Shown one piece after another: positions 1,568 through 63,842 of a stretch of 64,000 bases of DNA; the first letter of the stretch is position 1; the number at the start of each line of letters is the position of its first letter. Origin of the DNA: Beroe forskalii (Eukaryota > Ctenophora > Nuda > Beroida > Beroidae); NCBI GenBank assembly GCA_011033025.1, contig WFMF01000358.1, forward strand, positions 62,001 through 126,000, read 5' to 3'. Below the pieces are notes generated by a model. That model was not told where the DNA came from, ran no database searches, and was given only the letters and a program-made list of their open reading frames with translations. The translations under genes were made by a program, and so were the position numbers.

Positions 1568-1762
1568 CTTACATTTTTTAGCTGTAGGGTAAAACTTAGC
1601 ATTCTTGCTGTATTCTAGGAAACTTACGCCTGTTGCTGTAAAGAAAAACTTACGCTTGTTGCTGTAAATAAAACTAACATTTGTTGCTGTAGTAAAAACT
1701 TAAATTTGTTGCTGTATTAAAAACTTACATTTGTTGTTGTTAGTAAACTTACATTTGTTGAT
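1568..1762 (-). repeat. Tandem copies of a splice-donor segment
   Basis: Roughly seven degenerate copies of a 25-31 bp unit with core acttacatttgttgctgta. On the minus strand each copy reads like the end of the adjacent exon followed by its donor (AACAAATGTAAG), with a TACAG acceptor-like piece between copies. The copy nearest the exon is the true donor at 1752/1753. Confidence 0.75.
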
Positions 1763-2946
1763 GACAGCAGCTGACGTGGCAGCAAACACGTTAGGGTTAT
1801 CCTGAGAAGCTCGGAGTTGGTTGATGAAGGTCTGAGCTACGTCACGTTCCCGTCGTATAGACGTCAGCTCACGGCGGTCTCTGAGGAACAAGGGAAATAG
1901 GGAACAGAACTCTGAGACCCGCAATCCAGGTTTTTAAACATAAATACGTATTTTTATTAATAGGTACTGCAAAAATTACGATACGTATTTTTCATTTATT
2001 TTCATGCTTTTTTTCATATAACAACCTTCATAGAAATTATCGTTTTCATAGCAAGTCACGTATTTTGAAGAATACTTTATAGGAACCAATAGTACAATAC
2101 CACACCACAAAGCATTCTTCTTATCTTGGACGTAGAAGGGATAATTTTCAGAATTACTTGGTATAATCTTATAATTGTTGCATTGACACAATATATTGGT
2201 CTTATTCAGATTTAAAGTAGATTCAGAATTTAATAAAGTAGCTTCAGAATTCAGATTCTATTTTTAAAAGGTTGTAAATACAACCGATGCTATAATCAAA
2301 CTAGTCGGCAATTTAGGAATAAAGACTTCTGACTTTCATATGATAATCAAAGCGGGATCAAAAGAAGTAAATTACCTTTCTTGCTCCAATCGTAACTGAG
2401 CCACATTTTTGTTCGCTATTTCGTTCTCTTTCTTCAGCCTCTCCAAGGAAACGTTAACTTCATTTTTCTCCGTTTTAAGGGTATTTAACTCTGCAATCAG
2501 CTGAAATATGAGCATTGAAATTGATGGCAATGATCAACTTAGTTAGCAAATGGATCGATAGATAAAAACGCGCAAAACTGACAAAACGTTATGAATAGTA
2601 TATTGGGCGTAATTAACTTAAATTTATCAACCCTGCATCGATCAATGCATGTGCCCAAATATGGGTTATGTTCGAAGGAATGGGTAATAACCGGGAACCG
2701 CGGCTAGTCCCATTATTACTGACTAGTCCAGCAATTTAGCTGAACTTTACTTAAAATTTTAAGTTAATCGGTCCTGATATAGTGAAACAGGACTCCAATA
2801 AATCTTTCAATAAAATCAAACCTCTCTGAGCTGTTTGACACTCTCGTCTCGTTCCCTCCTAGCTTCCTTTCTCTCCCGTTCCGCAGATTGACACCGGTCT
2901 GTCAACAGAGATATCTTGTTCTGAAGCTCCTGAACGTTATACTCCC
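1753..2946 (-). CDS. Coiled-coil protein, three internal exons (partial)
   Basis: Three minus-strand exons join in phase: 2946-2822, 2500-2376 and 1880-1753. They encode about 125 residues rich in Glu, Lys, Arg and Leu with heptad spacing, for example KNEVNVSLERLKKENEIA in the second exon, typical of a long dimeric coiled coil. The third exon ends in a less charged stretch (DNPNVFAATSAAVINK). Both ends of the gene are missing: the start was not found above 2946, and the 3' part must lie beyond the left edge, past the minisatellite. Ciliary or centrosomal coiled-coil proteins look similar, but I cannot name the family. Splice sites: donors GTTTGA, GTAATT and GTAAG; acceptors CCTCAG, TTTCAG and CTCAG. 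Confidence 0.75.
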
Positions 2947-4072
2947 CTGAGGCAAGAAATGGGTCAATTCATTGTAATGACGTCATCAGATTAGCATTGT
3001 AAACAGTGGTTATGATTTCACCGTATTGGCATTGTAAAAGAACGATAGTACGATCAGCAATCATATTTTGGACTTGAGAGAAAATAAAATTGAAATTCTG
3101 AATTTGAACAGTCCTGATGACTATAATTTCTTGAGAAAAGCAAAGAGTTTCTGGGTTATGTTCATTAAAATGACTTCAATTCTTCGAGGAAAAGTGCTAT
3201 TTTTTGCATCGCTCGGAAGGAAGCCTCTCCCCTGACAATTTGACCTTTTTCTTGCTCCTTCTTGACGTTGGGCGGAGTCAACACAAAAGGTTTTAGAGTC
3301 CGGGCTCAAACCATGTGACCTTTTGTCAAAAAAAGTGACAGCACTCCGCTGATTTTGCAATTTCTAGGAAACCAAGTATTTTAGTAATATGCACTACGTC
3401 AGATCGAATCAACAAAATGGAAACCGATCAAAAATAGTGAATAACCTATTTCAAATATCATTAATTTTGCTACTGGCTCATTTATAACAAAGGAAGAACA
3501 ATGCCTTCACATATTCTGAATATGGTGAGGTGCCTCTCAGAAACATATTTCATATATGAAACATATTAATTTGGTGCAACAAAAGTCGTCGTGCCCCTAT
3601 TTCGAGAAGAGAACAATTATTACAGCTAAACAATAGGATACATAGTTACTAAGTATGAATATTTGGGGTTCACACAGTGTAGATGAATAGGAAAAGCATC
3701 ACTATCATTCCTTATAACAGGAACAAATATGGGTAGATTGGTACGGGATCAAAATCAGCAAGGGAGTGAGAAATATGATGTCACGCTACCAAGTCATTCC
3801 ACAAAGAGCTAAAATATAGATTGAATTCCTCAGAACACAAGACTCAGAACGCGCGAGATTTGGGGAGTCTCTCAGTCTTTCTCAGTTCTCACAATTGCGA
3901 TTAGAAGATTTTGCTCGTGCGTAATATATTGCAGCGCTTAAACATATAATATTTTCTTGTGTTTATAATATTACTCGTGAGAAATGTATTAAGTGCTTAA
4001 ATATAATATTTTCTTGTGTTTATAATATTACTCGTGAGAAATACATTAAGTTTTTTGTGCTCAGAGTGGGAG
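2947..4072. other. Intergenic region with a small 5' tandem repeat
   Basis: No convincing exon is seen. At about 3912-4050 there are two good and one degenerate copies of a ~57-bp unit (core ttcttgtgtttataatatta followed by ctcgtgagaaat) that run up to the signal-peptide exon beginning at 4073, so the repeat forms the presumed 5' UTR or promoter of the next gene. The rest is AT-rich single-copy-looking DNA. Confidence 0.5.
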
Positions 4073-6598
4073 ATGTCAGACTACGTGTTAAGGTGTCGTT
4101 TCGTTCTGGTTCCAGTGATCTTTCAGTTCATTTTCAGTGATATCGTGTGTGTTCCTTTGAATACTTATTCGTATTCGTTAGCTACAACAGCACCATCAAG
4201 GTAAGAGTACTATAAGAGGAAAATTCTCTGAAAGTTTAAATATGCACTTATTGAAACAATGTTAGATCGTTGAGAGATAGTTATGATCAGTCATTATGAT
4301 ATGACATGCCATTACATTAAACCTCTTTTCCCAAGGCCTGCCAGATTGAAGAATATTCAAAAATGACCAAGCCAAACTCACAAAAAACTCTTTAGGGCTC
4401 TTGTACAGCGTGCAATTCCTTGGAAAGTTTCATTTAATGTTATCTCAGTAGATTGGTACAGTAATTTCGGGGTTCCTTTGAGTTTAGTAGTCATGTCTGT
4501 AAAGTACCAATATCAGGTTTAAAAGTCTTTGATGAATTAGCAGTTTCCTAGGAGATACGAGATACAATGCTACTTCAGAATTACCAGGCTTCTTCCATGC
4601 TGTTGACTGACCAGTAACAACACCAAGACTGAGTCATGTGATTCAAGTAGCATTGATACGCTTCATTCATTGGTTGCTAAGAGTTAAGATGATTAAGGTG
4701 CTAGTAACTGCAATTCAGTTGTATCGAGTTAGTGTCTGTTATGGGATTCTGAATTCTCCACCGTTATCGAGAGAGTTCTTTATGCGCATCATCCCACTTT
4801 AGTTTCTATCAAAGCTTGTAGTTTTCATTTGTCCTGATGAACTAGATTGGAACTGAACTAAGTCGGAAAGAATGAGGGTTACGGCATTTGGGGATCTGGC
4901 TTCCAGAAACGAGACGCTGCTACGCACATCTAAGGGATTGGACATCCATGACACACCTTACAAATGGTGCGTCGGCCGGGAAGTTCGGCCTGGAACCTCT
5001 TCCTGGAACCGTGTGACTCTAACTTATGGATTGGACTGATTTGATCCCATCTGTAAATACTAGTCCATTACGTCCACTACACTCTGACAGAGACCGTTGA
5101 CAAAGATCGATCTGACAGTGCCACCAGATCAGGAAGGGACGACAGATTCGATGGTGACAACAACTCTGAAAGTGACAACAACTCTGAAAGTGACAACAAC
5201 TTTGAAAGTGACAACAACTCTGAGAGTTACAACAACTCTGAGAGTGACAACAACTCTGAAAGTGACAACAACTCTAGACTCGATAGTGACAACAACTCCG
5301 AATGTTGCAACAGATCTAGAGCTAGATTTGATAGTAACAACAGATCTAGACCTGACAACAGATCTAGATCTGACAACAGATCTAGATCTGACAACAGGTT
5401 TAGTCGCGATGGTATAAACGAAGCTGCCGGCACTTCCAAACTGGAAATAGTGCCTCCTTTAGGACTATTCGAGCCTCCGAACTGTATTGACGCCACTCAA
5501 GCCTTCACACCAGTCACTCCACCCTTCTCCACCTTCAAACTACAGACCGGAGGGATCTCACTTTGCGGGATATACTGTGAGACAACGTCCGGATGTGACT
5601 TGTACACTTTCCATTTCATCACGAGAAACTGTACCCTTTACACCAACGCTCAGGTAATACCAGTTTTTGGGAACATGGAGTCTCGTTCTCCGGATCTAGC
5701 GACAGGGTATCCGGACTGCTCGGCACCTTTGTTACGGACTTTGGACGAAGTGTTCTCGGCTGCGCCTCGCGGTGTTAAGATTCGACAGGTTTTCTTCAAA
5801 ACGGGGAAATGTTTGACAGTAACGAGTAACAAAGTGGCTGGGAATGAGTCGACGGCCTTTAAACTGGGTTGGGAATCGTGTTCCTCAGCTACCGCGTGGG
5901 ATATTGTGAAAGAGGAAAGATCAGGGACCGAGGGGCTGGAAAATCACGAGGTTCAACCGATCAGACTCTCGCCCGATGGGAAACCCAAATGGAGTCTTGA
6001 AGTTAAACTTTTCGACAATAATCACGTTGCGTACCTTTCGGAAACAAGCAATAGATCCAGTCAAACGGTTTTTATCACCGAAGAGCCTGGTGGTGATTGC
6101 GACTTTGAGATTTACTGGAATCACTACTACGTTTATACCGCTTTTAATAACGTAGCGTTCAACAACTACGGAGCTTCGCTGATGTGTCTCCAAATGATTC
6201 GTGTTAGCACCATCAAGAAATGCTCGCTCAAGCAAATGTCAGTGAAAAACGGAGTCGTTGTTAACCCTGGCAAAGTTCCGTATTTCCTGGAGGGAACTAC
6301 GGTTTCAATTCGTTGTAACCAGGGATTCCAAGTTAAAGGAGGGAACTATTCGGTCCTGCAAGAAGTTACATGCTCACGGAATTTCCAAGTCAAACCCTGT
6401 GTACAGATCAAAGGAAGTGGCACGGACAGTCTATCGACCAACACGACGCTTATCGTGAGTTTGGTCGTGTTTTTGTCGATTATTTTCCTCTTTGCGATGA
6501 TCGTACAACCTTGGACGACCATGTGTGAGCGAGAGAAAAAGGAGACCTCCGTCGAGCGGTCGGTTAGAGTGACAACAGTGGCGGAAACAATCAATTGA
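4073..6598 (+). CDS. Type I membrane protein: Asn-rich stalk, PAN/apple-like, beta-trefoil-like, sushi, TM
   Basis: Exon 1 (4073-4200) starts MSDYVLRCRFVLVPVIFQFI, a signal peptide, and ends at AAG|GTAAGAG. A second, large exon is open from about 5057 to the stop at 6596-6598. A phase-compatible acceptor is TGACAG before 5119, but that join is uncertain. Encoded in order: a stalk of DNNSES-type repeats with many N-x-S glycosylation sites (about 5150-5400); a Cys-rich PAN/apple-like region (NCIDATQ, LCGIYCE, CDLYTFHF, NCTLY); a region resembling a ricin-type beta-trefoil (TGKCLTVTSNKV, CSSATAWDIVKE); a sushi/CCP domain (KKCSLKQMSVKNG, VSIRCNQGF, VTCSRNFQVKPC); one transmembrane helix (LIVSLVVFLSIIFLFAMIV); and a tail of about 28 residues. 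An AATAAA polyadenylation signal lies near 6723. I know of no named protein with this order. The PAN and trefoil calls rest on motif spacing only. Confidence 0.75.
5150..5400 (+). repeat. 18-bp coding repeat (DNNSES) in the surface protein
   Basis: Seven to eight copies of an 18-bp unit, gtgacaacaactctgaaa, followed by several 15-18 bp copies around gacaacagatctagatct. The frame continuous with the downstream domains reads D-N-N-S-E-S and then D-N-R-S-R-S. Another plus frame is also open and reads a Thr-rich V-T-T-T-L-K/R repeat (5097-5417), so a small indel would switch one low-complexity stalk for another. Confidence 0.85.
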
Positions 6599-7004
6599 CG
6601 CTGTATATAAAAACAGAACACAAATTTAGTAATTGTGATTGTCTCACGTGCGTATCTAAATCTATAGTAATCCTAAGTGATAAACCGAAGAGCCTGGATT
6701 AGTGAATTTTCTCTTACGCTCAAATAAATGAGTTATACCAATGAGTAAAAAAAGGCGAAGAGACCCACACAAACAGTTAGTCTGGCGCATTTGATTTTTT
6801 ACTGGGCAGTTAGCTTCACCAGCGGGCTATTTTAAGCTTGTTCGACCGTTATGCACCGTTATTAATAGATCAGATTAGTATATATCATGCATTAGCTATT
6901 ATGCATTTTGAAAGTTTCAATAGTTATAGCATGCTTTTCAAATATATTATTCAAGTGAAGGGTGATCACTGCAACTAAAATTTCAAATTTGATGAAGAAA
7001 ATCC

Positions 7005-9061: not shown

Positions 9062-9411
9062 CTTTCTGATTATTGGTTATGACCATGCCAGATCATTTGG
9101 TTTATTCATGAAGCTTTCTAAATCCTAGCTCAATTAAATGGAATGAGTATTGATTAGAAAATGATTGTTATAAAAAATCAAGTACCTACAAATTTTTGAA
9201 ACCCAGTAAGTGCAAAACTCGATTTGAGGTTCAATTATTCAAAAAAAACCGATTGTGAACAAACATGTGCTCAGTCGAGAGATCCCATAGTGTCAATGGC
9301 TAAACCAGCTCTTTAATTCAAAGTCTTCATCCTTCTTGTCAACAGAACTACAGTTCAGTACAAATGTACCTGATTGAATCAACCTTCCGACCAAATCAGT
9401 AGGACTTATGA

Positions 9412-9540
9412 AGACAGTTCAAATTGCAATTTTGTGTATGTAGTGTAAGTTTGCACAGTGTAAAGATATAAATATCATGTCTGTATGCCATGCAAACTTA
9501 CACCCCACAAACAAAACTGTAATTCGAACAGCCACCATTA
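9412..9540. mobile_element. Fold-back MITE, family F, copy 1 (diverged)
   Basis: Two inverted arms of about 60 bp meet near 9475. The left arm holds gtgtaagtttgcacagtgta and the right arm ctgtatgccatgcaaactta, and the outer ends read cagttcaaattg and aattcgaacag. Three better-preserved relatives occur at 51157-51290, 51408-51572 and 58286-58436. Confidence 0.7.
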
Positions 9541-9744
9541 CACATAATTAATTAATTAATAAGTCTAACTAGTTATACACACTAGTTATACACATAAAGA
9601 ATCAAAATGAAATTTACCTCAACCCAGAACATGCCAACATATGATCCAATAGATTATAACATCCTATTCTTGTTTATAAGCGGCAGATGCTTGAGATACA
9701 TAGTTTCATGAACATTAAAGAAAAAATAAACATAACAATGATGT

Positions 9745-10495: not shown

Positions 10496-12008
10496 GCATA
10501 TGTGTCTTCATAAGTCGAAAACAACAGGTTGAAAAGTAGGTCGAAAAGTAGGTCGAAAGGACATGCAGAATTTTACTGTGCCCCAGTCTGGATTGTTTTC
10601 ACCACATCTCTCTTGAAGATTGAAAGCATGATCTGCAATTTCCAAGCCAAGAAGGGACTTTGTAATGTAATGTAATGTAAAGATTTTGCCATAAAGCAAC
10701 TCAATTAGTCAGAAAATTCTTTCATCACACTTTATCATTTTAGCATGTACCCTAAACAAGGTACTCAAAATATTTAACTATAAGTATTGTTCATCTAAGT
10801 TGTTAAAAAACACCCATATATACAAAGATCCATATGCATAACAGTCTGCTATTCAAAACTTGACAGTATGTTGATGGTGTACTGTCATTAACTCTGTCAC
10901 ACAGTCTTCTCGACACTGTTTACAGTTCCATTTCTGATGAAATGTCGCTTGTTAGGCTCATCAGCCTTCTTCCTCTTCAACTCTGCAACAAGAGTCCTGT
11001 GTGCAAGCCTCTGATCGTGGGACCTGTCGGGAGACAGGAAAACACTCTTATACTTGTCCTTCTCATTGAGTAGGGGAGATTTAGCAATGACCTCTGAAAC
11101 AATCAAGGAACTGGTCAAGGCAACCTTGACAGGGCGTGGTCTACTGTCCTTAGCCTTGCCCACTCTAAACACCTCCATCTTTGGTTTTTCTCCAATTACT
11201 TCCATGATGCTACATATCTTCTCATTTAGGTCCTCCTTGTCCTGCTCTGCCAGACCAAATACCATGATGTTTCGGCTCCTGTCCTCCTCCTCTACAACTT
11301 TCTTAACAACAGACACAATGCTGGCTGGTGTCACTGATGTCTGCTCCTGCAGTCCTGACTTCACAACGGAGCTGTAGCTCTTGAACTCCTCTTTGACTGT
11401 TTCCTGGACAGATGACTTCACACATGATGTTACTGCACACAACTGTTTATCTTTAAACTCCAGCAACTGCTTCTGAAGCTGTACCACATTCTCCTGAGAC
11501 TCAATAAGCTTCCTTTGCAGCACAACCATCTCATCAGAGATTTGGCTGAAGGGAGAAGTCTTCAGTGACTCATCATGCTTTACCTGCATATTATGATTCT
11601 CTTCCTCCAACCCTCGAACAGTACGGTGCATATCTGATATATGGACAAAAGCTTGACAAAGCATTGCAGCGAGTTTATCCTTTCCAATTGATTCACAGTG
11701 GTTAACAGTCAACTCCTTGGTACTAGGACAACTCAAAATCTTTAGTTTTCTCTTTATCCACTTATCCCACAAGTCCACATTATCATCAGCATGATCCATT
11801 GCAACAACAACTTAACTCAGTGGAATCTGCCCTTTCTACCTACCTTTTCAACTTCCCCTAACCAGGGGTGTCGATACGCTTGCCGCGCCGCGCACTCCGT
11901 GCGTGTAACCAGGGCCCTGGTTAGAGCAACTTTTCAACCTACTTTTCGACCTACTTTTCAACCTACTTTTCGACCTGTTGTTTTCAACCTATGAGCACAC
12001 ATATCAGT
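10496..12008. mobile_element. TIR element (family T) enclosing a LINE ORF1-like unit
   Basis: Inverted termini: the left end reads catatgtgtcttcataag followed by gtcgaaaacaacagg and repeated gtaggtcgaaaa blocks; the right end is the complement with cctacttttcgacc blocks and ctatgagcacacatatcag. A 254-bp relative without the insert lies at 50453-50706 and shares both ends and about 165 bp of inner left sequence. The inner part (about 10662-11930) holds a minus-strand ORF1-like gene. The tgtaatgtaatgtaa run at 10662-10683 would be its 3' microsatellite tail. The simplest reading is a MITE-like element into which a short, ORF2-less LINE copy inserted. Capture and joint mobilisation is the alternative. 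Confidence 0.7.
10897..11799 (-). CDS. LINE ORF1-like protein (coiled coil + RNA-binding-like C-terminus)
   Basis: One uninterrupted 300-residue frame. Residues 1-80 are charged, and about 80-160 form a coiled coil (LEEENHNMQVKHDESLK, VVLQRKLIESQENVVQLQKQ). The C-terminal half has the motif series typical of ORF1 proteins of invertebrate non-LTR retrotransposons: RSRNIMVFGLAEQDKEDL, IGEKPKMEVFRVGK, RPRPVKVAL, SVFLSPDRS and KRHFIRNGTVNSV. These proteins bind the element's RNA and act as a chaperone with the reverse transcriptase. No reverse transcriptase frame follows, so this copy cannot move alone. The intact frame suggests a recent arrival. A decayed relative lies at 29530-30387. Confidence 0.8.
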   Translation of the reverse strand: MDHADDNVDLWDKWIKRKLKILSCPSTKELTVNHCESIGKDKLAAMLCQAFVHISDMHRTVRGLEEENHNMQVKHDESLKTSPFSQISDEMVVLQRKLIESQENVVQLQKQLLEFKDKQLCAVTSCVKSSVQETVKEEFKSYSSVVKSGLQEQTSVTPASIVSVVKKVVEEEDRSRNIMVFGLAEQDKEDLNEKICSIMEVIGEKPKMEVFRVGKAKDSRPRPVKVALTSSLIVSEVIAKSPLLNEKDKYKSVFLSPDRSHDQRLAHRTLVAELKRKKADEPNKRHFIRNGTVNSVEKTV

Positions 12009-13909: not shown

Positions 13910-16900
13910 ATGGTGGATACACATCAAATACAAACAACATCTGATGTATTCAACCTTTATCTGAAGCAGAAAACAGAATTTCATTTTCAACAGAAGAGTG
14001 ATAATGACTTCATAGTTTTCTTACTTGACACTGCAGTTCGTGTCATTTCCATAGGTTAGTTTCCTTGGTGGTACTTGTTTCAATTTAGTTTCCTTGGTGG
14101 TACTTGTTTCAATTTAGTAATAAAGGAAGGTCACCATTAGTTTGAATATCACTGAACTTTGTTAAAGCTATTTACATCAGTACACTCTGACACATATATA
14201 GAATTCATCCCTTTATCTTGAATTTGTCTCAAATGAACTTAATTTGAGTGCCTGTAATTCACATTATTTCAGTTCAGCACCTATCTCCAGTTATAGAAGC
14301 AGTTTCTGATGCCAGTGTCACCATTCCTGAATTCTCTAATATCCATCCAGATTTGGACACCAGGTTTGATAAATCCTTGCAAATGGTATTTGAATAGATT
14401 AATGTAGTTTGCAAGTAATGTTTTCATAGCACAGCTGTGCATTGAAATAAGTTGATGTGCCACTATAATATAGAAGTCTAAATTATTATTATTATTAGTT
14501 AATTTCATGTGTCCATTGAACAATAGTTTTTGGTGAGCATGTCGACAGGGCTGTGTAGCAAGTGAGTATGATTTTAGTGGCGCGCTTTGAGCCACGCAAG
14601 ATATCAATTCAAATAATGTTGTCAAGCAATTTCAACGGAATCAATTCCAACTTGCTTACCTGGTATTGCTGTTCAGGTCAAATTTCAAATTCAAATACAA
14701 TTCTAGAAGATTCAGGTACTTGCTAACTTGATACAATTGATGCAGAATTGTGTTGTTACCAACTACAGTGTTACATGAATGCTCAGTTATGTGATTTCAA
14801 TGTTGATGTGTCAACCGATGTGTCAATCTGTGATTCTGTGCGGGTGGACTATTCAATTATTGTGACAATCTGATGCCACCTTGATATCACATTAGCAAGT
14901 ACCATTTCACTTTCACACATGGTAATGACTATTTGTCGATTACTTTGTTAACATTTCAGGAAGTTGAAGAACCGACTGAAGATATAAAACCAGATGAAGA
15001 TGATGATGGTAGGTTGGGTTCAATCCACAGAAGTTTTACAAAAGTAGATATGCCGAGCTTAATCATAATGATGCTATTAATGATGCTATCTATATCATTA
15101 GGTTGATTATCACTTCATTAATATTGATGATTTCTCTCATATGTTTCACATATTCCATCAGAAGAGAGCACAGTAGAAGTTGAGCCTCAACTCCCACTGA
15201 TCACCACACCACCTCACTCCACCACAAACCTCACTGACGGATCACAAACACCCACCGACACCAAGACATCGTCTGACACCAAGTCATCGTCTGACACCAA
15301 GTCATCGTCTGATACCAAGTCTGACACCAAGTCATCGAGTGATGTGATCAAGTCATCCGCAACTAACCTGAGTTCGGATATGAAGTCGTCGTCGAGCACG
15401 GGTCACCTCATGTCACTGACATCCATTACGAGTGTGTCGCTGGGAAACCGGGCAGCTTCGTCTAAAGAGCTGGAGAAGGAAGATGACGGAGTTAAGAGTG
15501 AGTCACGATCATGTTCACGAATCACAATACTGGTTTCCCCTATCCAGTGGCTCCGCGGCTTGTCTCCCATGTAAACGGGAGCCTTCATTATCTGTGACAA
15601 TGACGTCACTTAGAGAAATATTAATAAGCGCAGCTGGCGCTTTGAAGGTAAGGATAAGGGTCGGGATTTAAGGTAAGGATTAAGGTTAGGGTTTTGGTTA
15701 GGGTCTTATTTAGGTTGAGGATAGCAGGATACAAAAATTGTCGTTTAGATCTGTGACGTCACTCTGCCCCGTTTACATGGGAGACATACCTGCGCCGCGG
15801 AAACCAGGGTCCTAGTAGGGCAAGATACTGGTTTACAAGGTTTTACAAGGTTTACAAGGTTTAAAGGTAAATATTGGGCAACTATCGTTACCCGTCATAT
15901 TTTACAAACAGCATATTCAAGAAAAAAAAACAACAACAACAACAAACGTTTTATTTCAATTCTTCAATTGTCTCACGCATTTCTTATTCTCATTGATAGC
16001 CTCATTCAAACACATTAAATTCCCATGTTAATCAGAATCTCATCCAATCAAATCATATAATAGTTGTAGCTATATGCGTTTTGCCAGTTACTTGTGCATT
16101 TTGTCTGCTCAGTCGCAGCGTCTACCATGCCAAGTACAAACTTCTAATTTAATTCAAGATTGTATAGTATCATAGAATATTCCCACCTGGTTTTTGTTTT
16201 CTTGTAATGATATGACTGCCTGCTCACTGACTATATAATCCCTTTTTTTTTCTAAGTACATCACTCAATCAAGTTCCCTCTTAGACACCTCACGGTTAAT
16301 TTCCATTTGGAGCACCCTCTTAGTAAGCCCGGCATAATGCGTATTTGGTTGCTTGTGACTTGATAAGTTGATAGTGCTTTGGTGTAAGAAATGTTCGTTA
16401 AATTCCAAAGTGAATAACAAGTGTATTAAGTGCTGCTTGGCGCTCCTTAAATCACTGAGGTACTTATGTCGTATGTCCATTGCTCGGTGAATAAAGCTAC
16501 AAATACATGTTATGATGTAGGCACGTCGCTCTTCAGAGTCGGCACGTTCGCGGGGCTCAATACTTAATCTCTGTGTATTGTGATGTAAGTTATAGGAGTT
16601 GAGATTCACACTAGTTGGGTCAGAACATGCGAATGGTGATAATAGAGTGATAAGGTTTTCTCTGAGCGTTACAATGTTAACATTAAGTTGTGGGTGATCA
16701 TTACATGTGTGACGTGGTGCATTATTAAGCTGATTGATGACTTTTACACGCAAACCAGCATATAGGTCACATTCATATAATAAGTGATTTTCGTCCTCCA
16801 TACTTTCTGTTCCCATAGACAATTTACACCAAGTACAGATACGCGACTCTCTTGGTGTGTTGCTGTACCTCCCAGTCTCGATCTCGAGGTCATGTGCGCT

Positions 16901-19900
16901 AATTCTCAATTTTGAAGTACTATAACGACGCGAAAAACCTTTTATTTGCATCAAAGGTATGGCTCTCTGGCGAATTTAGTTTTGCATTCATTATAGAACG
17001 AAAGTTTAGGTGATACAGACTTTTCCTTAAGCCAACACGAAACAAAATGATCTGTGAGACTTTTCATTACACTTCGAACATGAATTTTCCACTCGGTATA
17101 GGTTCAACATAGTTAGTTAATCCAAGTGGGTCTTTGGGTGGTATCACGTAATTATTGTCTTTCAGTACACGAAACGCGGTCGTGGTCCATATGGAAGATT
17201 TCGTCCAGTTTTAGAAGAGGTTTTATATTTTTGAACCAAGGAAGGTTTAATGACTTTTGTTCCTTCAAGGCAGCTTTAATGAATGTACTTTCGCCTGCAT
17301 TGGATATGTCCAATTCCACGTTACGTAATTCACAAAAACGTCGATTTTTTGACAAAAATTGCTCAACAATTTCAACAATCAACATAAACTAACCCCATTT
17401 TTAGGCTCATCCAGTACTTCAGGATGCTATCTACATTCCATAGAAACACTATTTCTAGAGATCAAAAGAGTTTCTTGTCAGAGTGTTTTAAAAAGCGTTA
17501 CGTAATTCACAGGGCTGAAATTATACTTTCACACTACGAAAATCTGACAGGGTATTTCAGCTCAAACAGGAATGCAGTGCTCTTTTGCTTATGCAAGTCT
17601 TATCTCAGAGGGGTGTAAATGCTCAGAAAAATTGCCACTTATCCACTACTTCCTACTTTGAATCTGTACCGAGCACTTTTCTCTTGTTACGTAATTCACA
17701 ATTTTGTGTTACGTAATTCACGAGACACATTGATAACTTCACTATTGTCATTTGCTTCACTTTATTGCCTCATTTAGTTTTCAGATTATCATCAAATGAA
17801 GATAAGTCATGAGCATTGCTTGAATCACAAATTTATGAATTTGAAATTGAATTATCATGCTTCAAAAATGTGAATTACCAGAAAGCATCAAGCACAACCT
17901 ATAATGGGTAAATTCTTCAAAGTTTCATAAAATATCGACTGTGATTAGTTTTAGGCCACTGATTGTCATTATTCGAAGTGTTATGTATTGAAAAATCTTG
18001 AATTTGAAACATTTCGTTACGTAATTCACATTATTTGTTACGTAATTCACAACTGATATTGGTCATATTTGTTGATAATAACCTCATAACACTGTCAAAC
18101 TCTTTTTCATTGTATAATATACATTCAAGTCTCAAAATAAAACGTTATTTATATGGATAACTGTAAAAACCATCGTTTTGTTGACGCTTTCGTCCCTGAT
18201 ATATCTTTGAAAGCCATAACATTGGACAGCATTGGACAAATAATGACAGTATGTATACGAAATTAATAGTTTTTGTTACTTGAAGCATATCCCAATCAAT
18301 TTTATATCAATTGCTGTAAAATAAAAGCATTTTCAAATTAAATGGCATACTTCGATATTTGTGAATTACGTAACGTTACGTAATTCACATCAGCTTTTTA
18401 TCTCATTCAGTGACAAAAACAAAGCACAAAGAATTGTCTCACTTTCAAGATATACCCACTAAACTCCTGAAATGAAAATTTGAAGACCAAGGACCTGATA
18501 CTCCAGGAGTAATAAAACTTTTTGTACTATACCGTTACGTAATTCACAAGGTTTGGGCTACTGACAAAAAATGAAATATCTCCTTCATTTGAAGTACTTG
18601 AGAGCCAATACACCAGGACAATACTGTTAGGGTTCCAAACAATATGTGAAACTATTTTGCAGCTTACCAAGTTTCATATTATTCAAGATATCATATGGTC
18701 AAAAAAGTCCCAAAATTGATCATTATTGATTCACATTTGAAGCAAAGTTTGACTGAATCTCACGAAAAACTGGTGAAGTCTATTCACAAACGGTTTTTTG
18801 TTCCTGAAAGTTACAGATCTCTTCTAACTAGACACAAAATTTCATTACCTTAGCTCCATCTTGAATTTTTGACCTGTGGTAAACATTGTCGTGGAATTGG
18901 ACATATATGATATACGTTTATAGTAGTTAAGAGTGAGTCGTATTGATTGATATATTAACGGATGTCGACCACTCTCTCCCCAAACACCAATGTTTGAGGC
19001 CTTTCTGTGAACGCCTAATGCCCATTTGAGGAAAGAGAGGTGGACTTTTTCAGACATAGTGCGACTTATTTTTGAGATGAAGTTGTCAAGGTTCATCGGT
19101 TGTACTGTGCAATGCTTAATAATCGATTTATTTATCACGCTTGTTGGGGTCCATACTGGGGCACCATAAAGTACGATAGGCTTAATGAGCGAGTCAAAAA
19201 GTGTGTTCACTGCTTTGAAAGATAATTTAGAGCGAATGACCGTGCGTTTGAGGCCGAAGAACGCTCTCATGGCCTTTTCCTTAAGTGTCGTCTCGGCAGT
19301 TTTGAGTAACAGTGAAAACTGGTGTCAGGGTAGATCTTTAGGCTGGTGTCAGAGTAGCGCTTGACACCGGTATGAACAGTTACATTGCTTGACACTGGTT
19401 TCAGTGTAGCGCTTGACACTGATGTCAGGACAGAGCTTGACACCGGTATCAGTGTGGCGCTTGACACTGGTGTCACTATGTAGCGCTCAGTAACAGCCTT
19501 GAAATCACTAACTCCAAGCACTCCTTGTACCCATCTACTCTCCTTATCAGTCGCCTATAACTCACCTTCCCTCACCTCCCCTCACCTCAGAGGATGAGGA
19601 TGTTGATGAGGAAGACGAGATTGTCCTGAAACACGACGTTGAGATGCTAGCAGAGGAGTATCCTTCGGAGTTATCTCAGCCCAGACCCCCCGAGATTGAC
19701 CCTCGTATCAACATTGACCAGTTCCTCTTTGTAACGGAGAAACTTCTGGGAGAGGACCCTCACCCGTAAGTTCTATATCACCCACCTTAAGAGCATAAGG
19801 GCAGTTTGTTTTCTTTAATTAGTCAATAGTGATATGAGCTAGTATTCATAAAGTTCCCATGCTTCCATTTTTTTTTCTAAAAGTTAAAGCACCCTTGCTG

Positions 19901-45600: not shown

Positions 45601-46227
45601 GTGTCAGCAGAACAGTAGACTGGTGTCAGCAGAATGGCGTATATCAACACATAATTCGAAGTTATCCCAAGGACAAAATATTTTCTTATTCTAACTCAAA
45701 CTTTGGATATATAACTGTGACGAAATCCCAGAATTATTATATATGGACCTATTTTGTTTAAGATTTTGTTTAAAGTTTAGTATTGACTGATCCCGTTTTG
45801 CAGTGTTCGCCCCGCCTAAAGTTGACATGACAGACGACGTTACCGGAGAACCTCTCATCTGCAGACCGGATGATAACCCTACCGTGCTCCAACGCAGATT
45901 GGACATCTACCACGAACAGACTGCACCCCTCATCTCGTGAGTTTGGGTTTTCTCTCCGCAATTTTTATCAAAAGAATGGCGAAAAATTGATCGCAAAAAT
46001 TTTTCAAATAAGTTCAAAATTGTTATATCCTTGATTCATTTCCGTTCCCAACTATCCAAATTGCTAATTTCGAGATCTTCGAATCCTGAATCCTATAATT
46101 CCTCAAAACCAAGTGACCCATGCTTTTCAGGTTTTATAAGAAGAAAGGCGTGCTGCGTTCCATCGACGCCATGCAGTCACCAGAAAAGGTTTATGACGAC
46201 ATTTGCTCCAAACTCAATAAACAGTAA
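39660..46227 (+). CDS. AK2: Adenylate kinase 2-like (incomplete as assembled)
   Basis: Exons: 39660-39765, 39925-40013, 42129-42236, 45804-45936 and 46131-46227, with a stop at 46225-46227. The product interconverts ATP + AMP and 2 ADP; AK2 acts in the mitochondrial intermembrane space. Visible family motifs: [20 protein letters not shown] with DMLRA (NMP-binding region), [35 protein letters not shown] (Asp of DGFPR), VIEF, then the second half of the LID ([19 protein letters not shown]) and the C-terminal helix region ([20 protein letters not shown]). The N-terminal P-loop exon is not seen. The exon with the conserved RRITGR...SGRSYH part of the LID is absent between 42236 and 45804, where array B lies. 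The first two introns are one nucleotide out of phase under strict GT-AG splicing. It could be a real gene in a faulty assembly or a decaying copy. Confidence 0.85.
40880..41040. repeat. Degenerate ~45-bp repeat with CRE-like sites
   Basis: Three to four copies of a unit around gataatgacgtcatcaattc and accattataatcca occur in an AK2 intron. The first copy carries the palindrome TGACGTCA and later copies TGACGTAA or TGACGACA. Confidence 0.65.
42197..42291 (+). repeat. Duplication of an exon 3' end into the intron
   Basis: The last ~40 bp of the exon ending at 42236 (gagggtcagtcagaacc to aacgtcatcgagttc) recur, slightly diverged, at 42253-42291 (gagggtcaatctgaagtaat to aacgtcatagagtt), just inside the intron and directly before array B. 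Confidence 0.9.
42292..45632. repeat. 22-bp minisatellite array B
   Basis: About 150 copies of the same 22-bp unit as array A (core actggtgtcagcagaac), in the same direction and much more homogeneous. Most units are identical, with scattered variants such as acattag, accgaag and gtagctag insertions. It fills most of the AK2 intron between exons 42236 and 45804, where one AK2 exon should be. Confidence 0.97.
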
Positions 46228-48335: not shown

Positions 48336-48814
48336 CGTCAGGGTCTTTATAAACGGCCGAGTTGAGAGAGTACCGTCTCCGGTGGTCGGGGGTGTAGGGG
48401 TCGTGTTCGGCGTTATACGCTCCAGGATTAGCGAACTGAAAGTACTTTTCAGTAAATTCGGTATTCCAATTCGATGCTAAAATATTTTCCCAAAACCAAA
48501 AAAGATTTGGTTGTGTTGGTTCACGGCAGTTTTGTCGCGGTTTAGCGAACTGAAATTACTTTATCACAGGAAATTCGATATTTCTAAGATATTTCAATGT
48601 AATTTGTATACTTACTATACTATAAAAATCGAAATATACCGAGCAGCGCAAGGAACGTACCGAACCTAGAAACGCACCGAACTTGCCTAGATTTCAGCTC
48701 TGTAACCTACCACATCATCATCGAATTTGAACTGTCGGAAGAAAGCATCCAGATTCCGCATTGACATACTCTTATCCGTGTACACTGATGTGTTGTACGT
48801 GTCTTCTACCAAAT
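48328..48814 (-). CDS. Alternative cytoplasmic-tail exons (tail B) of the Ig receptor
   Basis: Two minus-strand exons join in phase: 48814-48711 and 48435-48328 (stop 48330-48328). They encode a 69-residue acidic, Tyr-rich sequence with EDTYNTSVYTDKSMSM, NLDAFFRQFKFDDDV, FANPGAYNAEHDPYTPDH and a C-terminus SAVYKDPDVV. The first exon starts with AT in phase 1, exactly like the tail-A exon (52652-52435), so both can follow the exon ending at 54184 and restore GAT. The acceptor region of the last exon (cgaactgaaag at 48431) is duplicated about 114 bp upstream on the minus strand (48547). It could instead belong to a separate gene whose upstream exons I did not find. Confidence 0.6.
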
Positions 48815-55400: not shown

Positions 55401-58400
55401 GGAGTCTATGACTTTTTGAATATCCATGCCTAGTCATCTTAATTACTAATTGTAATTGCATTGTACAACTAGCATCACTTACCCATGAGTGAAACTAGAG
55501 ACGAATCGTCAAGTGCCAGCGTCCCAATGTTCTCTATCCTCACTTCATGCGGCTCAGCGCCCTTAACTGAAACACAAGGAATAATTATCTTGAACTTGTT
55601 TATTAAACATTTTTAACTGTAACGCAAGGTAATATTTAAATAGTGAAAAGAAACTTGTTGTTGTTGATTTCAACCTTTGACTGAAACACAAGGAAATATT
55701 GTTAATCGTCGACGGTCGAGAGTCCAAGCATCCTATAAAATGTCCCAAATTTGACTAATGCTTTTTTTCCGAACTATTCAAACTCTAGACTTTGATCATA
55801 TTGGAATCAATATGGAATTTTTGGATTTAAATTTTATTTATTTCGGCACATTGCCAGCCCCATATTTTCCTACCGAAGCTGACGGCTATGGCCTCGTAGC
55901 AGTGCTCGTAGGGTGTTCCCTGGATCGTGTTCTCTCCACAACACTGGAACTCGTCAGTCGGGCAGTCGTCACTCTCGTAATCCACTTGGATTATCTGAGA
56001 GGATATATTGCATGAGCTAATGGAATGTCAGCCGTATATCTACCATACCTACTTAATCCCGATTTTTTTCGATCTTTTTCGTCTCTATTTTATTGTTTTT
56101 TTTTATTGTTTTTCATCCGATGATTGAAGTGAATTCTAATTTTCCTCTAATTGCGACGTACAAGGGAAACGAAAGGTTAATGGTCTTCAATTAAAATTCA
56201 TCCCTGATGTCAACTTTATTAACCGCTTGATTTGTACTTATTTGAAATTCCACCCATTTGATATATTTTTGTATTTATCTTTTTGGCTTTTCTCATTTAC
56301 TTTTATCGATTAAAGAATTCTTACTTAAAATTCAATCAAAAATGTGAGCTCATATTACTGTCTAACGTACCATTGTTCCATGACACCATTGGGCTGTTAA
56401 CGCGTGTAAATCTAAATCATTCATTTGGCTCGTAGTTTTTGTTTTTCATAGAATATTCAAGATGCATTTTTTACAATATTATTATTAAGTATGCATAGGG
56501 TCCAAAATCCTCATGACCTTTTTGACATGAGTACATGGGGTGTGCGCTGCGACCGAACATTTGGGAATTTGCCAACCTGAGTTCTAGATTCAGGAAATTC
56601 TAGATTCAGGAGTAGATAATAGTCAAACTCCTTTGATATCAAATTTGTGTCAGCGACACTCGCTCGTACGACCTAACTTATTAATGAATTGTTTAGCCAC
56701 TAATTTAAAACAATCCCACAAATAATTAACAAAAAACGGAACTCAAATTACATATTTTTGCAAATATATCTCAGACCATCACTCTTTCCCACGCTATATC
56801 ATAAAGCAGTAATAATATGCCCTCTGCAAATGTTATCTTGGGGGTTCGAAACACTTCACATGGACACCCAATGATAAAAGATAATGTGACGTCATCAATA
56901 TACCAGTGTTTAAACCTGATAATGACGTCATTTTAACCGCCTAAATTACACTCGTGTGTATATTGGGTACTAATTTAAGCATTATAGGGTGTTCTTTCAA
57001 TAAGAAATATCAAACGTATGTTATCTGCCAATTTGACAAATACGTGTCACAGGAATATTATAGATGTAGCCGTTTTCATTTTATCAATTAGAAATCTGCT
57101 CAACTTTATTGTTACTTCTGAATTGGTACTGCATATATGTTATTTTCACACATCTCAAGAATTGCAGCAATTTGCACAATATCATAGCGACTGCCAATTC
57201 ATAGAACACATAAAACTTCTATATACTTATTATTATAGTTTTCTGTCATTTTTTATCAAAAATATAATATTATTTCCTCCTCTTCTATAGATTATATTAT
57301 TGAAGGGCTTCTCCTCTTTTTATGACTTTTCCCATGGTTGTATAGTGTGTAATAGAGTGGAAACATGTGAGATGACAGCTCTCCGACAACTGCTAGCTTT
57401 TTAGAGATTACACACCAGAGTATATTGTGAAAAAGGGTCACATAGCCATCGGTTATCACGGTTATTTCACGACTTATCATGGTTATATTTCACTTCTAAT
57501 TATCACGGTTTAGTATAGTCATTAGTCCTTGAGATTACATACCAGCATCTATGGTTGGTATCTGAGTATATAGTAAAAAGGGTCAAATTGTGCCATCGGT
57601 TATCGTACTTATCACGGTTTTTCTGCCCCTGATTTCGAAAGGATTTTACTGAGAAAAAGTCAAATGGGGTCATCTGTCAGCTATCGACTATCGTGTGTTA
57701 TTTTGTGCATCAAAAGAATGATAAAATTTGAGAATATTTGACCATTTGGTAGAATACTGGTTCTGCGTAACGTTGGAATGAAAGTCAATATATCAAGTGA
57801 GACATTGAAAATGGGATAAGTATAGAAGGTTGAAAGGATGGTTTTAGAATGTAATCCTTAAACAAGAAAGAAGTACCCCAGCGATTGGACTACAAAGCCC
57901 CTAAATTCGCCTAGATTATAAAGAGACCCTCATTAAATTGGTTAATTACCTGCGCACGAGAAATAGGCGGGTAGGATGACGTCATTATCATAGCGTAATG
58001 TAGTGAGTTGATGACGTTGAACCGCAAATTTCTCGTGCGCGGCGTTTAATTGGTGGATTCTTAGCCAATAAGGTCGCCCCAAAAGAATTCGCCCCAGATA
58101 GAAATAAGTGGTGCTGAGTGCATAAGAAATGCTTTGATACTGTTAACTTACCCTTTGATCAGTAAACTGAAATGGTAATATTCTGGCATAAATATCAATC
58201 TAATTAGATAATTAGTAAGTTAATCAATCTAGTAATAAGTCCATTAGTGATGTCCCAGTGTCCCACCGCTACCCCGAAAGTCTGAAATTCAGCTTGCGTG
58301 TCTTTTTTAGTGCGCGCAGCTTGAGTTTGCGCAACCTATAAACATAATTGAAATACCATGTCTGTACGCCGTGCAAACTTAAGCCGCGCACACAAGAGAC

Positions 58401-61400
58401 GCGCAAACTCCAATACGAACAGTTACCGCATTTTTGCTCCAATCTTCGAGAAAGATAAGGGTCGAGGAAGAGAAAGTGATAAATAAAGAAATAAGACCTC
58501 AACGTCCCTACCTCAATGTCGTTTGACTTGGTGATTGTGGACACAGTTCCACAGCTGTTCTCTGATCGGGTTATGGAGATGGTGGGTCGGGGGAGCCCCG
58601 TGGCTTTGCAGGACGCGGACAGAGGGTAGCCTTCCGTGCCGTATACCTGACGATTGGAGAATAATAAGAGGATGGTTTTTATAGTGGGATGTGCTAGAGA
58701 AAAAAAAGAAAAAAGATATTCGCAGTGAAGGATAATCCTTAAATCCTTTTGATGTAGGATTGGCCAGGAAAATATTTCCTTGTGTTCGTAAAAGCAGAAT
58801 AATATCCTGCAACGACTCTCTATCACTTACCATGTTTCCTATGACGAGAGTGTAGTCTGTGTCTGGACTGTTCTGTGTTACCGTCACCCTCTCCTCAACT
58901 GCCAGGTTAATTGTAATGCACGCCTCGTTCTTTTGTCCTGCGAGGGTGAGTTTAGGAATTGATTAAATCTTAATCGAAAAACTAGATTTATTTTTGCCTT
59001 GTTTTTCACGAATTTACGTATTTTCTTTTTGGGGTTGGTAATGCTTATGTCAGCAAAATTAGGCAATTTGGAGTCGTGTGAAAGTATTTATTTTATTGTC
59101 AGTTAGTCAGTTTATAATTGCATGCATAGTCTTGTCTTCGATTTCCTCGTCACAAACCTGCCACGTAGTTGTGGGTACAGCAGGAGTAATTTCCGGCGTA
59201 AGCTTCTGATACTTTGTCAATGAGGAGGTTACCAATGTACTTCCCTTCTCTGAGGATGGAGTTAATTACCATGGTAACCATGGTTACCATGGTACCACAT
59301 GGTTACCATGGTTGCAAGTTAACGATACTTTGTCAATGAGGAGGTTACCAATGTACTTCCCTTCTCTGAGGATGGAGTTAATTACCATGGTAACCATGGT
59401 GACCATGGTACCACATGGTTACCATGGTTGCAAGTTAATGATACTTTGTCAATAAGAAGTTTACCAATGTTCTCTGAGGATAGAGGTAGTTACCACGATA
59501 ACTAAATGGTTACCATGGCTACTATCGTTAAAATAGTTGCAATTTTACCATGGTTGAATTGAATACCATGATTAAACTTATTTTAGTGTTGAAGACATGA
59601 TATTCTGAAAAGCACTCTTACTTGTTGACTTTAACGAGACTGGACGTTACGCTGGCACTGCTTGAGTCAGGAACATCGATTGTAATGTCCGAAGGAGTTG
59701 GGTTACCTGAGCCCGGTGCACTGAAAAGACCTTGGTTTAGGGAAATCATAGCCTTGGTTTGTTTGCTAATGCCAGTCCGATTGGAACGTGTCCGTTGATT
59801 TCTTCAGTTCCACGAGAAATATGATGTTTCCTATCTGTTTTCACTTTGTTCAAGACATATCAATTGTTCCAGAAGGTTTATGTAATCTTTTTCCTTGCAT
59901 GGTTTGCCGGTCAACCTGCATCTATGTTTTCTTATTCGAAGTATTCCCTAACCTGCATAGTGAAGTTGGCTCCCCTGACAGAGTGAATGTTGTTCCCCAG
60001 CACCGTGATATCCTCGTTAGACTGCGTCGTGTGGGCCACTTCAGCCGGCTGGGCGTCTGAAATGGAATCTGTAGAATTTCAAGGCAAATATTTAATAAAT
60101 CAAGCTAATATCCGACTGAAAAAGTGAAGAAAAAAACTATCAAATAAAGTTCAAACGTGTGAAAACGCGAAATTCCTTTAATTCGAAAGTCGAATAATAT
60201 GATGATAAACATGATGATAAATAGGATGGATAAGAGGGTAATAGGTAAATCATCGAACAATTGAGGGTAAATTATGACGTATGATGATGACGTTTACCTC
60301 GAATGATGACTGTTTTGTACTGCGTGACCATACCAGCCTCGTTGTACGCTATGCACTGGAATATCCCACTGGCATTTTTCTGTATGTTCTGATGATAAAA
60401 TAGTGTAAAAAGTTACGTAATGTATGTAAAAAGTAAAAACCGTGAAATATATAATTATGTCACGTTTTGATATATATTTTTATCTCTGAGCATCACATCA
60501 TTTTGTACTCTCCCTGGTATAGAAAACGTCATCATTTCGCTGTTCTGAACCATGATCATGACGTCACTTTTTCCACTTAAATTTTATTTCTCGTGTGCAG
60601 TGGCGTGTATGATATTTATATATCATTTGACCTGGTGTGTACAAGTGTAAAAATCATTAGCATTTATAATTTTTGCGGCTGTTACAATTTTCACATTTAC
60701 ACTCTCAACGTAATTTTCTTAATATGTAAACCGACAACATGGACTTTCTTAACATCAAATTTATCTACAAATTTGCAATATACTTTGAAAATTGCAGTTT
60801 ATTAAAATGAAGTGTAATGGATAAAATGTAAATTGCATTGTTCGTGTGTGAAAATGGATATAAATTCACATTTTCGTGATCACTGCATCCAGCCAGAAAT
60901 GGTATAAATCGAACGTAATTTGTCGAAAGTTCTCTTAAAATTGACATAATTCCCACTGTAAAAGTTCTCAATACACACAGAGACTGGGAATACATTTGTG
61001 TGAAGAATCTGTCAATTTTTATTCTGGACCGTGTAACTGTATAAAACCGCATTTTAAACAGAATTGTGTGAGCTATTGAGCTTTTAGTATACCTATTCAA
61101 TCGTGGATCGGAAGAGTAAATATTGAATTATTACGAAACTTTAATGGAAGAAGAATAAATGATAATTTTATTGATAATTTTCTCCGATTTAAGAATATGC
61201 CATTAATCATTTCACCATGAATTTATGTGTCAAAACTTAGTAACAGTGTTTATTGGCCTTAATTCTTTGAAAATTGTTGCAACCAAAAATTTTTTAGAAC
61301 ACAAGTAAAGGCAAATTTTTCATATTTTGTGTACAATAAATGGCATTTGCTGACGCTAATAACTAAGTTCGAGTTAACATGCACGGGCATGCCCTGGGAA

Positions 61401-63842
61401 CTTTGAACAAAAAAATTGCCACTGGGTACCAATTTAGGAACCCAGTGGCTCTCAATCGAACGGGTTAATCAAATGAAATTGTCGTCGTACGAAATTATAA
61501 AAAATTTAGAAAGTTGAGATACGGAAGTATCAGAAAATCGTGCTTACTCTTTTCTCAAGATTTGACTTTAATGAAAATTTAAGAAGAAATCATCAATTTT
61601 CATAGATTAATACCTCGATTGTCAGAATTCCGTCATCGAAGTTCATGGCGAGAACTCCTCGACTGTGGTCACTTGTGGAGCCATCCTCGCTCATGACAAA
61701 CTGAGCCAAGTTTATTCCTGAATTTAGAGTCGACATTAGAAAATATATTCAATAGTCATTATATTTTGTTAAATGAGTGAGAAATTCTGATTTCTGACTA
61801 AAAACTGACTTGAAATTTTTCTAAATTTCTGGGGAAATATATTTGTTATGGGTGGTTTATGAGCCATGAAATCATAGATAGATAAACTAGATCATGAATT
61901 TCTCATGAATGTTCTAAAATATATCTCCAGGCGGCGATGAATATTAAATTAGAATATTTTCCTGTCAGTATAATTTGTCAACTTACCATTCCAAAGATAG
62001 ATGGGATTTCCTTTGACCTTCAGCCCGAAGTCAATGATAACCGTGGCCCCAGGGATGTTATACTGGGAGTTGTCCATGGACTTGTTGAATTGGGGTTTCA
62101 TATCTGAATTATGAGTAAATTTAGTGTGGGAGTTTTTGAATAGAAGTTTCATATCTGAATTATAATGAGTCGATTTAGGCTTTTATAGTCAGAATTATAC
62201 GAATCAATTTAGGCTTTCATAGCCCTCAACCGCTATACCCGACATACTTCGCAAATTTGAAGTCGGCTTTCGAAAATATGTGAGCTACAATTTATAATAC
62301 TGAAGCACAAGTTGGTGCGTTCAAAACTTCAAAACTGTACCTGACAGAGTGAGTCTGATGGGTTCAACGGACTTGGTTCCTCCACTTAGCGCCGCGCACT
62401 TGTATTCCTCATTGTCATCTGACACTTTGATGCTCTTCACGACCATGCTTGTTTCTAACACCTGATGTAGAGCATGGGTCATTGCATGGATTGAATATGC
62501 CTTGGATATAATAATTTATTTTTTGAAATTAAATGTTTGATTTCATTGATTTTTGTTGAATAACCTGTTGATTAATTATTATGATTATATTGATTAAAAT
62601 ATGCGCATTCCTGCAGCACGCGATATCAGCATCATTATGTTTAGTCATGCAAAGCAATTCATTTCCATGGAATTTACATTGATTGATCATGGGTGACATC
62701 TTTTTTTAGCAGCAGCGTATTTTTCAGCAGTTAGTTGATATTCAAAGCGATCATAGCAAATTAAATAAATTGATAGAAATTGAGTATTTTATACCTATAA
62801 AAAATTTAATCAGATTTAATTATACGTATTGATCAACCATTTTTTATTCATATTTGACATTCAAAATCATTCTGCCTAAAATCGCGGGGAAAATCACAGT
62901 ATAAAATATTTTCTGTAAAAATCAGAGAGAAAATTCGGTAGGTACTCATTTCATCACCCTTTTTATTTAAACTTTCATTCCTAATTTAGTCGCACTAAAA
63001 TCCACTTATTTTACTTTTCTAATCAGCGATGTATTATTTGTATTTTATTTTTCTAATCAGCGATATATCATACACGCATTTACCTCAACGTATTCGTTCT
63101 GATAACGAATCTTATTGGCACTTTTCCGCTGGGGAAGGGTTCATTCTATAAATCTCACTCGACTCAAGACAAAATAAAAAGTCACCTTATCTCACCTTTG
63201 AGAAATGAGCGTTACTGCCCGACGTGCAAAGCTCTCAAGTCCTTCTAGTTCTATACTTACATCGTAAAGTAAAATTAAACACAAGGAAATATTTTGTTTT
63301 TTCTATGCTTACATCGTAGACATCGCTGGTGGTTAACTTCACGTTGTTCGTGTCCTGCCACTCGTAGTTTGGAGTGGGGTACCCACTTGCTCCACACCGC
63401 AGCGTCACGCTCTCACCCACTCGCGGCTTCCCGCCGTTGTCGATGAACAGGATCCGAGTGGAGTTGTCCGGCATCAGGCTGTTCGAGGCTGAAAGTTGTG
63501 TTTATAAGTTTATAAATTTGGGTTCTTAAATATTCTTGCTTTCTTTATCTTGCTTTATTCTGCTTTCTTTTTTCTTGCCTATGAGGCATTTTTTCAAAAT
63601 AGATTATTCGAGTCATTTTCGAAATTTGCTCTTCCTCAATTAGTAAATCCACAAATTGTAAAATCCACTGCTGTCATAACCCTACCTGCGGTCTTGACAG
63701 AGTAACTTTTAGCGACACTGGTTCGGCCCCTAAAGTAAGTGCCCGTTCCCTCCACGTCACAAGTATAGGTTCCAGCAAAGGTATCCTGGTAGTTGAGCAG
63801 AAGAAGGTCGTTCACTTCGATGTTGTATTGCTTGTCAACAAC
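52435..63842 (-). CDS. Ig-superfamily transmembrane receptor (5' end outside the window), tail A
   Basis: Eighteen exons: 63842-63686, 63488-63313, 62461-62341, 62103-61987, 61717-61614, 60388-60298, 60056-59953, 59706-59622, 59249-59158, 58937-58831, 58646-58512, 55994-55874, 55566-55483, 55245-55105, 54881-54747, 54509-54426, 54270-54184 and 52652-52435. At least six Ig-type domains are seen through paired motifs such as FAGTYTCDVEG, VTLRCGASGYPTPNYEW with EEYKCAALS, ASGIFQCIAYNEAG, YAGNYSCCTHNY, LSASCKATGLPRPTISI, and LSLNCSAKSFPESTFTWEY with YEFKCTAKNVFGG. Exon 54509-54426 encodes the TM helix (VGIVLFVLALIIILIMYIFF). Next comes a Cys cluster (CMRHCICKCC) and a tail with YKLL, YREL and YEEL motifs ending NKYEELF. 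One join (59953 to 59706) is a nucleotide out of phase. It is probably a cell-adhesion or recognition receptor. No named orthologue is claimed. Confidence 0.85.
52660..52815. repeat. ~50-bp repeat with X-box-like cores
   Basis: Three to four copies of atcacgtgttgctaggtaac, then gcgttgcgttaca. Each contains GTTGCTAGGTAAC, which fits the RFX X-box form GTNRCC-spacer-RGYAAC loosely, next to a CACGTG in the first two copies. It begins 8 bp outside the acceptor of the tail-A exon. Confidence 0.75.
55483..55705 (-). repeat. Triplicated splice acceptor
   Basis: Upstream (minus strand) of the exon 55566-55483, the acceptor segment aatatttccttgtgtttcag, then tyaaagg, occurs three times, near 55570, 55625 and 55685, with a few changes. 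The nearest copy is the functional acceptor. Confidence 0.75.
55995..58511 (-). other. Long intron of the Ig receptor
   Basis: This 2.5-kb intron contains the fold-back MITE at 58286-58436 and repeated ttatcacggtt words near 57450-57610. No exon was recognised on either strand. Confidence 0.5.
58286..58436. mobile_element. Fold-back MITE, family F, copy 4
   Basis: The outer arms gcttgcgtgtcttttttagt and caagagacgcgcaaactcca, the inner block atgtctgtacgccgtgcaaa, then cttaagccgcgcacac, and the end aatacgaacagttaccgc match copies 2 and 3. The left arm is more eroded than the right. Confidence 0.75.
59206..59475 (-). repeat. Tandem duplication of exon start, acceptor and X-box-like palindromes
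   Basis: A ~121-bp unit occurs at 59206-59326 and 59327-59447, with a shortened third copy to about 59475. It contains part of the exon 59249-59158 (tttgtcaatgaggaggttac), its acceptor (ttcccttctctgagg read in reverse) and a run of gttaccatggtaaccatgg palindromes. Confidence 0.9.
60389..61613 (-). other. Intron of the Ig receptor without recognised content
   Basis: AT-rich sequence. The open frame at 60765-61100 has no splice-site support and no recognisable domain. No repeat was noticed. Confidence 0.5.
61987..62190 (-). repeat. Duplicated splice acceptor plus exon start
   Basis: The acceptor and first bases of the exon 62103-61987 (attcag|atatgaaac) recur about 50 bp further into the intron (attcagatatgaaacttcta) at 62140-62162, with related aattataatgagtcgattta words beyond. 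Confidence 0.75.
63235..63330 (-). repeat. Duplicated splice donor
   Basis: The junction tctacgat|gtaagcatagaa of the exon 63488-63313 is repeated about 60 bp downstream as tttacgat|gtaagtatagaa (63250-63270). The second copy is the closer match to a consensus donor. Confidence 0.75.

Follow-up and report, generated by a model that had tools for sequence, protein, structure and literature searches.

In a 64,000-nucleotide stretch of the Beroe forskalii genome (contig WFMF01000358.1, positions 62,001 to 126,000; hereafter the window), predicted exon-intron junctions carry tandem copies of themselves on their intron side. These junction copies are real, recurrent and of a known kind, the minisatellite-like "mirages" of lancelets. 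An independent block of 200 kb, on contig C592 of the same genome, holds them at no higher frequency than ordinary tandem duplications within introns. An earlier note on the window had named 11 places where a junction seemed to be duplicated. Eight of them held true junction-spanning copies, in which a stretch running from the exon through the splice signal into the intron is repeated on the intron side, whereas the remaining three proved to be an exon tail copied without its donor and two repeats lying within introns. The true copies comprise three donors and five acceptors, showing that both 5' and 3' boundaries are affected.

Exons were called in the window and the block with an ab initio exon finder written for the purpose and self-trained on both. 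The first self-training run collapsed into tiny exons and was discarded; the run used had a fixed length prior and excluded repeats from most of the training. Counting exons of any score, it predicted 96 for the window and 211 for the block, and junctions were counted only from exons that scored at least 8 and were no more than half covered by repeats. Repeats at the named places were delimited with Tandem Repeats Finder or by direct reading, and genome-wide counts were taken from the assembly (216 Mb, 1134 contigs). Adenylate kinase, GAF and immunoglobulin (Ig) domains matched Pfam above cut-off in the wider gene models of the window, and a search with single open reading frames (six proteins) returned Sushi as its sole match, below threshold. 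The eight junctions with true copies are as follows, a slash marking the splice site.

1620-1760, minus strand: donor array, 25-bp unit, 5.6 copies, carrying AAT/GTAAGTTT
32425-32588, plus strand: donor array, 38-bp unit, 4.3 copies, exon end with donor CAG/GTACCC
33403-33928, plus strand: acceptor array of about 14 copies, its 37-bp unit made up of pyrimidine tract, AG and exon start
48419-48566, minus strand: acceptor at 48435; a single diverged copy lies about 115 bp upstream
55559-55710, minus strand: acceptor at 55566 of an Ig-type gene exon, copied upstream at -50 and at -114
59208-59470, minus strand: acceptor array, 116-bp unit, 2.3 copies of the acceptor (about 59249) and some 40 bases of Ig-like exon
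62090-62180, minus strand: acceptor at 62103 with one upstream copy, which offers an in-frame, stop-free alternative at -51
63245-63325, minus strand: donor GAT/GTAAGCATAG at 63313/63312 with one copy 52 bases into the intron

The clearest cases are the four arrays, at 32425-32588, 33403-33928, 1620-1760 and 59208-59470. At 32425-32588 the authentic donor is 32460/32461, at the end of a GAF-domain exon, and CAG/GTACCC occurs four times. At 1620-1760 it is most likely 1753/1752, and the next copied donor, 1728, is in frame and stop-free. The array at 33403-33928 is the largest true junction duplication among the named places, its authentic acceptor being 33919 or the in-frame 33883; by eye, two 37-bp variants alternate in its interior and the units at its edges differ. 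The acceptor duplication reported at 59206-59475 was confirmed, with the junction lying about 40 bases less far into the exon than had been proposed. Its repeated stretch holds Ig-like codons, residues 4-35 of the joined peptide matching I-set and ig below the Pfam cut-offs. Searching the assembly for a second haplotype of 32150-34150 or 1500-2100 found none. A dispersed element of about 44 bp (32590-32637), present at 89-97% identity in at least 36 other genomic places, starts directly where the donor array at 32425 stops.

The three places that are not full junction copies are listed below.

42197-42291, plus strand: tail of an adenylate-kinase exon (donor 42236/42237) with one diverged copy about 55 bp downstream
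14056-14118, plus strand: intronic 29-bp repeat in 2.2 copies, which adjoins a weakly predicted donor but copies no junction
21297-22007, plus strand: intronic array, 23-bp unit, about 31 copies, stopping 4 bases short of the acceptor at 22012

At 42197 the aligned part covers 20 to 4 bases before the donor, and the copy runs into a 22-bp satellite, which follows directly, before it reaches a donor of its own. The repeat at 14055 begins at the intron, its copy lacks a GT, and the exon beside it is weakly predicted (score 3.2). The array at 21297-22007 is not a junction duplication, since it is intronic, its consensus unit lacks an AG, although a single copy contains one, and its end falls short of the exon. 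The earlier note had counted it among arrays of 12-31 copies with unit ends at the splice site.

The closest known system is the mirages of lancelets, described in two reports as minisatellite-like tandem duplications of 5' or 3' exon-intron boundaries, with units of about 10-160 bp and many copies bearing AG/GT in several genes per genome: Adh3, the globins BflGb6 and BflGb9, and TnC and PGBD5, the last two added by the second report (PMC3087553, PMC3902484). According to these reports, splicing is left undisturbed. Our cases share the tandem repeat that spans the boundary, found at the eight window places and in the block, the involvement of both boundary types, the unit length (25, 37, 38 and 116 bp in the four window arrays), and AG/GT in many though not all copies. 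The concerted evolution inside mirage arrays, with outer units excluded, seems by eye to fit the 33403 array only. Here the rate has also been set against that in introns. A GFP-family search of the assembly, run without a positive control, gave no match; lancelet genomes are larger than these 216 Mb and rich in GFP genes. A second related system is intron gain through tandem duplication of genomic AGGT, as outlined in PMC3443670 and PMC2891723. There too the duplicated stretch carries splice-like signals, and the 32425 unit between successive copied donors runs from GT to AG; here, however, the duplications flank existing predicted introns. No report of mirages outside lancelets, or of their genome-wide rate, was recognized among the titles and abstract openings we surveyed, which covered few subscription papers. 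Two block junctions with copies lie in Pfam-supported genes (Ins134_P3_kin, an inositol-phosphate kinase, and Thioredoxin). The presence of such copies in this genome suggests that mirages may not be confined to lancelets.

How often junctions are copied was assessed with two tests at an alignment score of 16 or more. The looser test used 240 of 244 junctions, after removal of those near a sequence end; the complexity-filtered test used 239, after removal of those near an end or of low complexity, and wherever a copy lay on the opposite side the point or junction was left out of the rate tests. With the filter, a spanning copy was found at 10 of 238 junctions in window and block together, compared to a control rate of 0.0004 when junctions were compared with the flanks of other junctions. 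Junction-copy similarity is thus far above chance, as the earlier note had held. In introns, 49 of 2601 points 60-400 bases away also had copies. Because the pattern was noticed in the window, the block is the fair test, and there the stricter test found copies at 3 of 146 junctions and 32 of 1697 intronic points. The former figure is a rate for junction-spanning tandem duplication in a stretch that was not preselected, and its match to the intronic background argues that mirages need no special mechanism. Of the mid-exon points, 0 of 89 in the window had such copies; in the block, 2 of 131 did. The looser test, without a complexity filter, gave a spanning intron-side copy at 8 of 93 window and 6 of 147 block junctions (14 of 240), compared to 819 of 20421 intronic first-copy points. 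These tests replaced an early ungapped 24-mer test that showed no enrichment but left many-copy arrays and low complexity undiscounted.

Repeat arrays were also relocated at random within their gene neighbourhood. Array ends had been expected to cluster within 5 bp of splice sites, and the counts did not bear this out: the window had 1 such array where 1.2 were expected, and the block had 2 where the expectation was 1.8. Junction-spanning arrays numbered 4 in the window against 1.5 expected (p 0.06) and 3 in the block against 2.95 (p 0.58). A favouring of junctions beyond that of introns in this genome is therefore not supported outside the window.

We favour the view that these are mirage-type minisatellites arising from ordinary tandem duplication, with intron-ward copies tolerated when they preserve the outermost site, and put its probability at about 75%. 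Short tandem duplications are abundant in the introns of this genome, and by chance one would sometimes straddle an exon edge. To be harmless, the extra copy would have to lie on the intron side while splicing still used the original, outermost site; the messenger RNA would then be unchanged and the intron would merely grow, and copies that extended the exon would be purged by selection. Slippage or unequal exchange could later enlarge some of the first duplications to arrays of 4-14 copies. Copies lay on the intron side in 14 cases and on the exon side in 3 (240 junctions), which is what selection would leave, since a straddling duplication spares the messenger RNA if the outermost site is kept. 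The anatomy of the copies, their one-sidedness and a block rate equal to that of introns were observed, whereas the chemistry of duplication, the neutrality of the copies and the use of the outermost site are inferred. Of the two causes that the earlier note had offered, selection that tolerates intron-ward copies fits, and a process that copies DNA around junctions finds no support outside the window. Two long open frames of the window contain 18-bp coding repeats (5154-5397 and 15257-15333), which suggests that exons, too, can retain tandem duplications as long as the reading frame is preserved.

Several results weigh against ordinary duplication as the whole account. The junctions are ab initio predictions throughout. 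In the window the stricter test gave 7 of 92 junctions and 20 of 925 intronic points, an excess of about 3.5-fold, and the pooled junction/intron ratio was 2.2 (bootstrap interval 0.9-4.1), or 2.5 (1.0-5.2) at score 18. At score 14 or more the copy rate was highest within about 30 bases of junctions (10/234 at the junction, 13/225 at +20, 12/216 at +30 and 6/211 at +45, compared to 0.8-3.7% at 60-400 bases into introns). Across the genome, the donor word AAGGTAAGT was found in exact pairs 17-47 bp apart with 96 hits at about 29 loci, threefold more loci than the reversed word (13 hits, about 10 loci); a second reversed word, TGAATGGAC, gave 20 hits at 6 loci. Such findings would be expected of a duplication process that favours junctions, for instance slippage or double-strand-break repair through AG/GT-like microhomology or transcription-linked structures at exon edges. 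We nevertheless consider such a process unlikely, as the excess is absent from the block, array ends do not gather at splice sites, and most inspected AAGGTAAGT loci do not lie at detectable exon ends: in 6 of 28, an exon predicted with a score of at least 6 ended at the first copy, and a seventh had a kinase-like exon by eye. The words are also imperfect controls, with single-word counts for one word pair only, and raw hit counts say little because the composition-matched control word GAAGTGATA gave 142 pair hits (53 in reverse), 98 of the 100 matches listed falling in one array. A modest apparent excess could also come from selection that holds the original exon half constant, by which, on our reasoning, a junction pair would stay recognizable longer than free intronic copies.

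Two further explanations concern what the copies do and whether they exist. They might be kept as alternative donors or acceptors, in the manner of NAGNAG sites on a larger scale, as the earlier note had proposed in speaking of a reservoir of alternative sites, or they might serve as decoys that adjust splicing. In the 33403 array, every one of the 13 upstream units retains an acceptor score of 5.0-8.7, compared to 8.95 for the authentic site. Across the eight window junctions, 34 alternative sites scored above the 5th percentile of predicted sites, and three of them (33883, 62154 and 1728) keep the frame and meet no stop; none of the 12 alternatives at two block junctions does. The copy at 48435 holds no site above threshold, that at 42197 has no donor, and published mirages reportedly leave splicing unaltered. 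We therefore regard retention for splicing as quite improbable. No unit length of the four window arrays is a multiple of three. With so few copied sites that are in frame and stop-free, the copies are unlikely to form a useful reservoir of alternative sites, although three in-frame options exist. NAGNAG and other tandem alternative splice sites place several acceptors or donors close together; the clustering is shared, whereas spacing here is 24-116 bp or more and mostly breaks the frame, and in-frame alternatives are not the rule. Misassembled reads are the least credible source of the arrays. One published lancelet mirage was reportedly misassembled in a draft genome, and contig C213 ends inside an array resembling one on C701, but the copies are diverged and mostly non-identical, and like structures occur in unrelated contigs and genes.

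A broader claim would be that mirages occur genome-wide in an animal outside the lancelets, at a few percent of all junctions and with a real junction bias of twofold or higher. We hold this broader claim doubtful. If true, this genome would show tandem duplication turning exon edges into intron and at times into new introns.

The word-pair results as a whole carry little weight, because a few large arrays and words outside exon ends dominate them. CAGGTAAGT gave 219 pairs and its reverse 20 (single words, 1734 and 1365), large arrays dominating the 100 of 219 matches listed, and one of four inspected CAGGTAAGT loci was at a clear exon end. TTTTCAGAT gave 316 pairs and its reverse 5, with 92 of the 100 matches listed in one 9-kb array. 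Three of eight inspected control-word loci also lay in coding-like sequence, two of these being copies of one another. Among the AAGGTAAGT loci, C392:556870 was left out and L045 had too little upstream sequence. Two AAGGTAAGT-locus peptides presumably resemble a kinase and SENP, although neither short peptide matched Pfam; a third matched only BTB_2, below threshold.

Two very long arrays, G000 C358:148903-157771 and C248:400078-414219, have units of about 40 bp in which the splice consensus TTTTCAG/AT and CAG/GTAAGT occurs among the copies listed. A 45-bp donor-bearing unit is common to L045, at the end of C213, and L063, on C701, in an exon that is kinase-like by eye and carries what we take to be a kinase motif. 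C213 ends inside this array, perhaps at an assembly break or as an allele.

The 22-bp satellite of the window, ACTGGTGTCAGCAGAACAGTAG, occurs in three arrays (positions 9-1432, 19318-19475 and 42292-45634), of which two are large and lie close to a listed duplication each, and one is diverged. Exact 39-base matches to it number 97 in the genome, 93 of them on the window's contig in one orientation, one on C433 and three on C580. Open reading frames at 10897-11811 and 18845-19324, without a Pfam match at 0.01, are presumably pieces of a non-long-terminal-repeat retroelement. Palindromic GTTACCATGGTAAC-like repeats, which we take to resemble the RFX X-box, cluster at 27507-28925 and 59266-59428.

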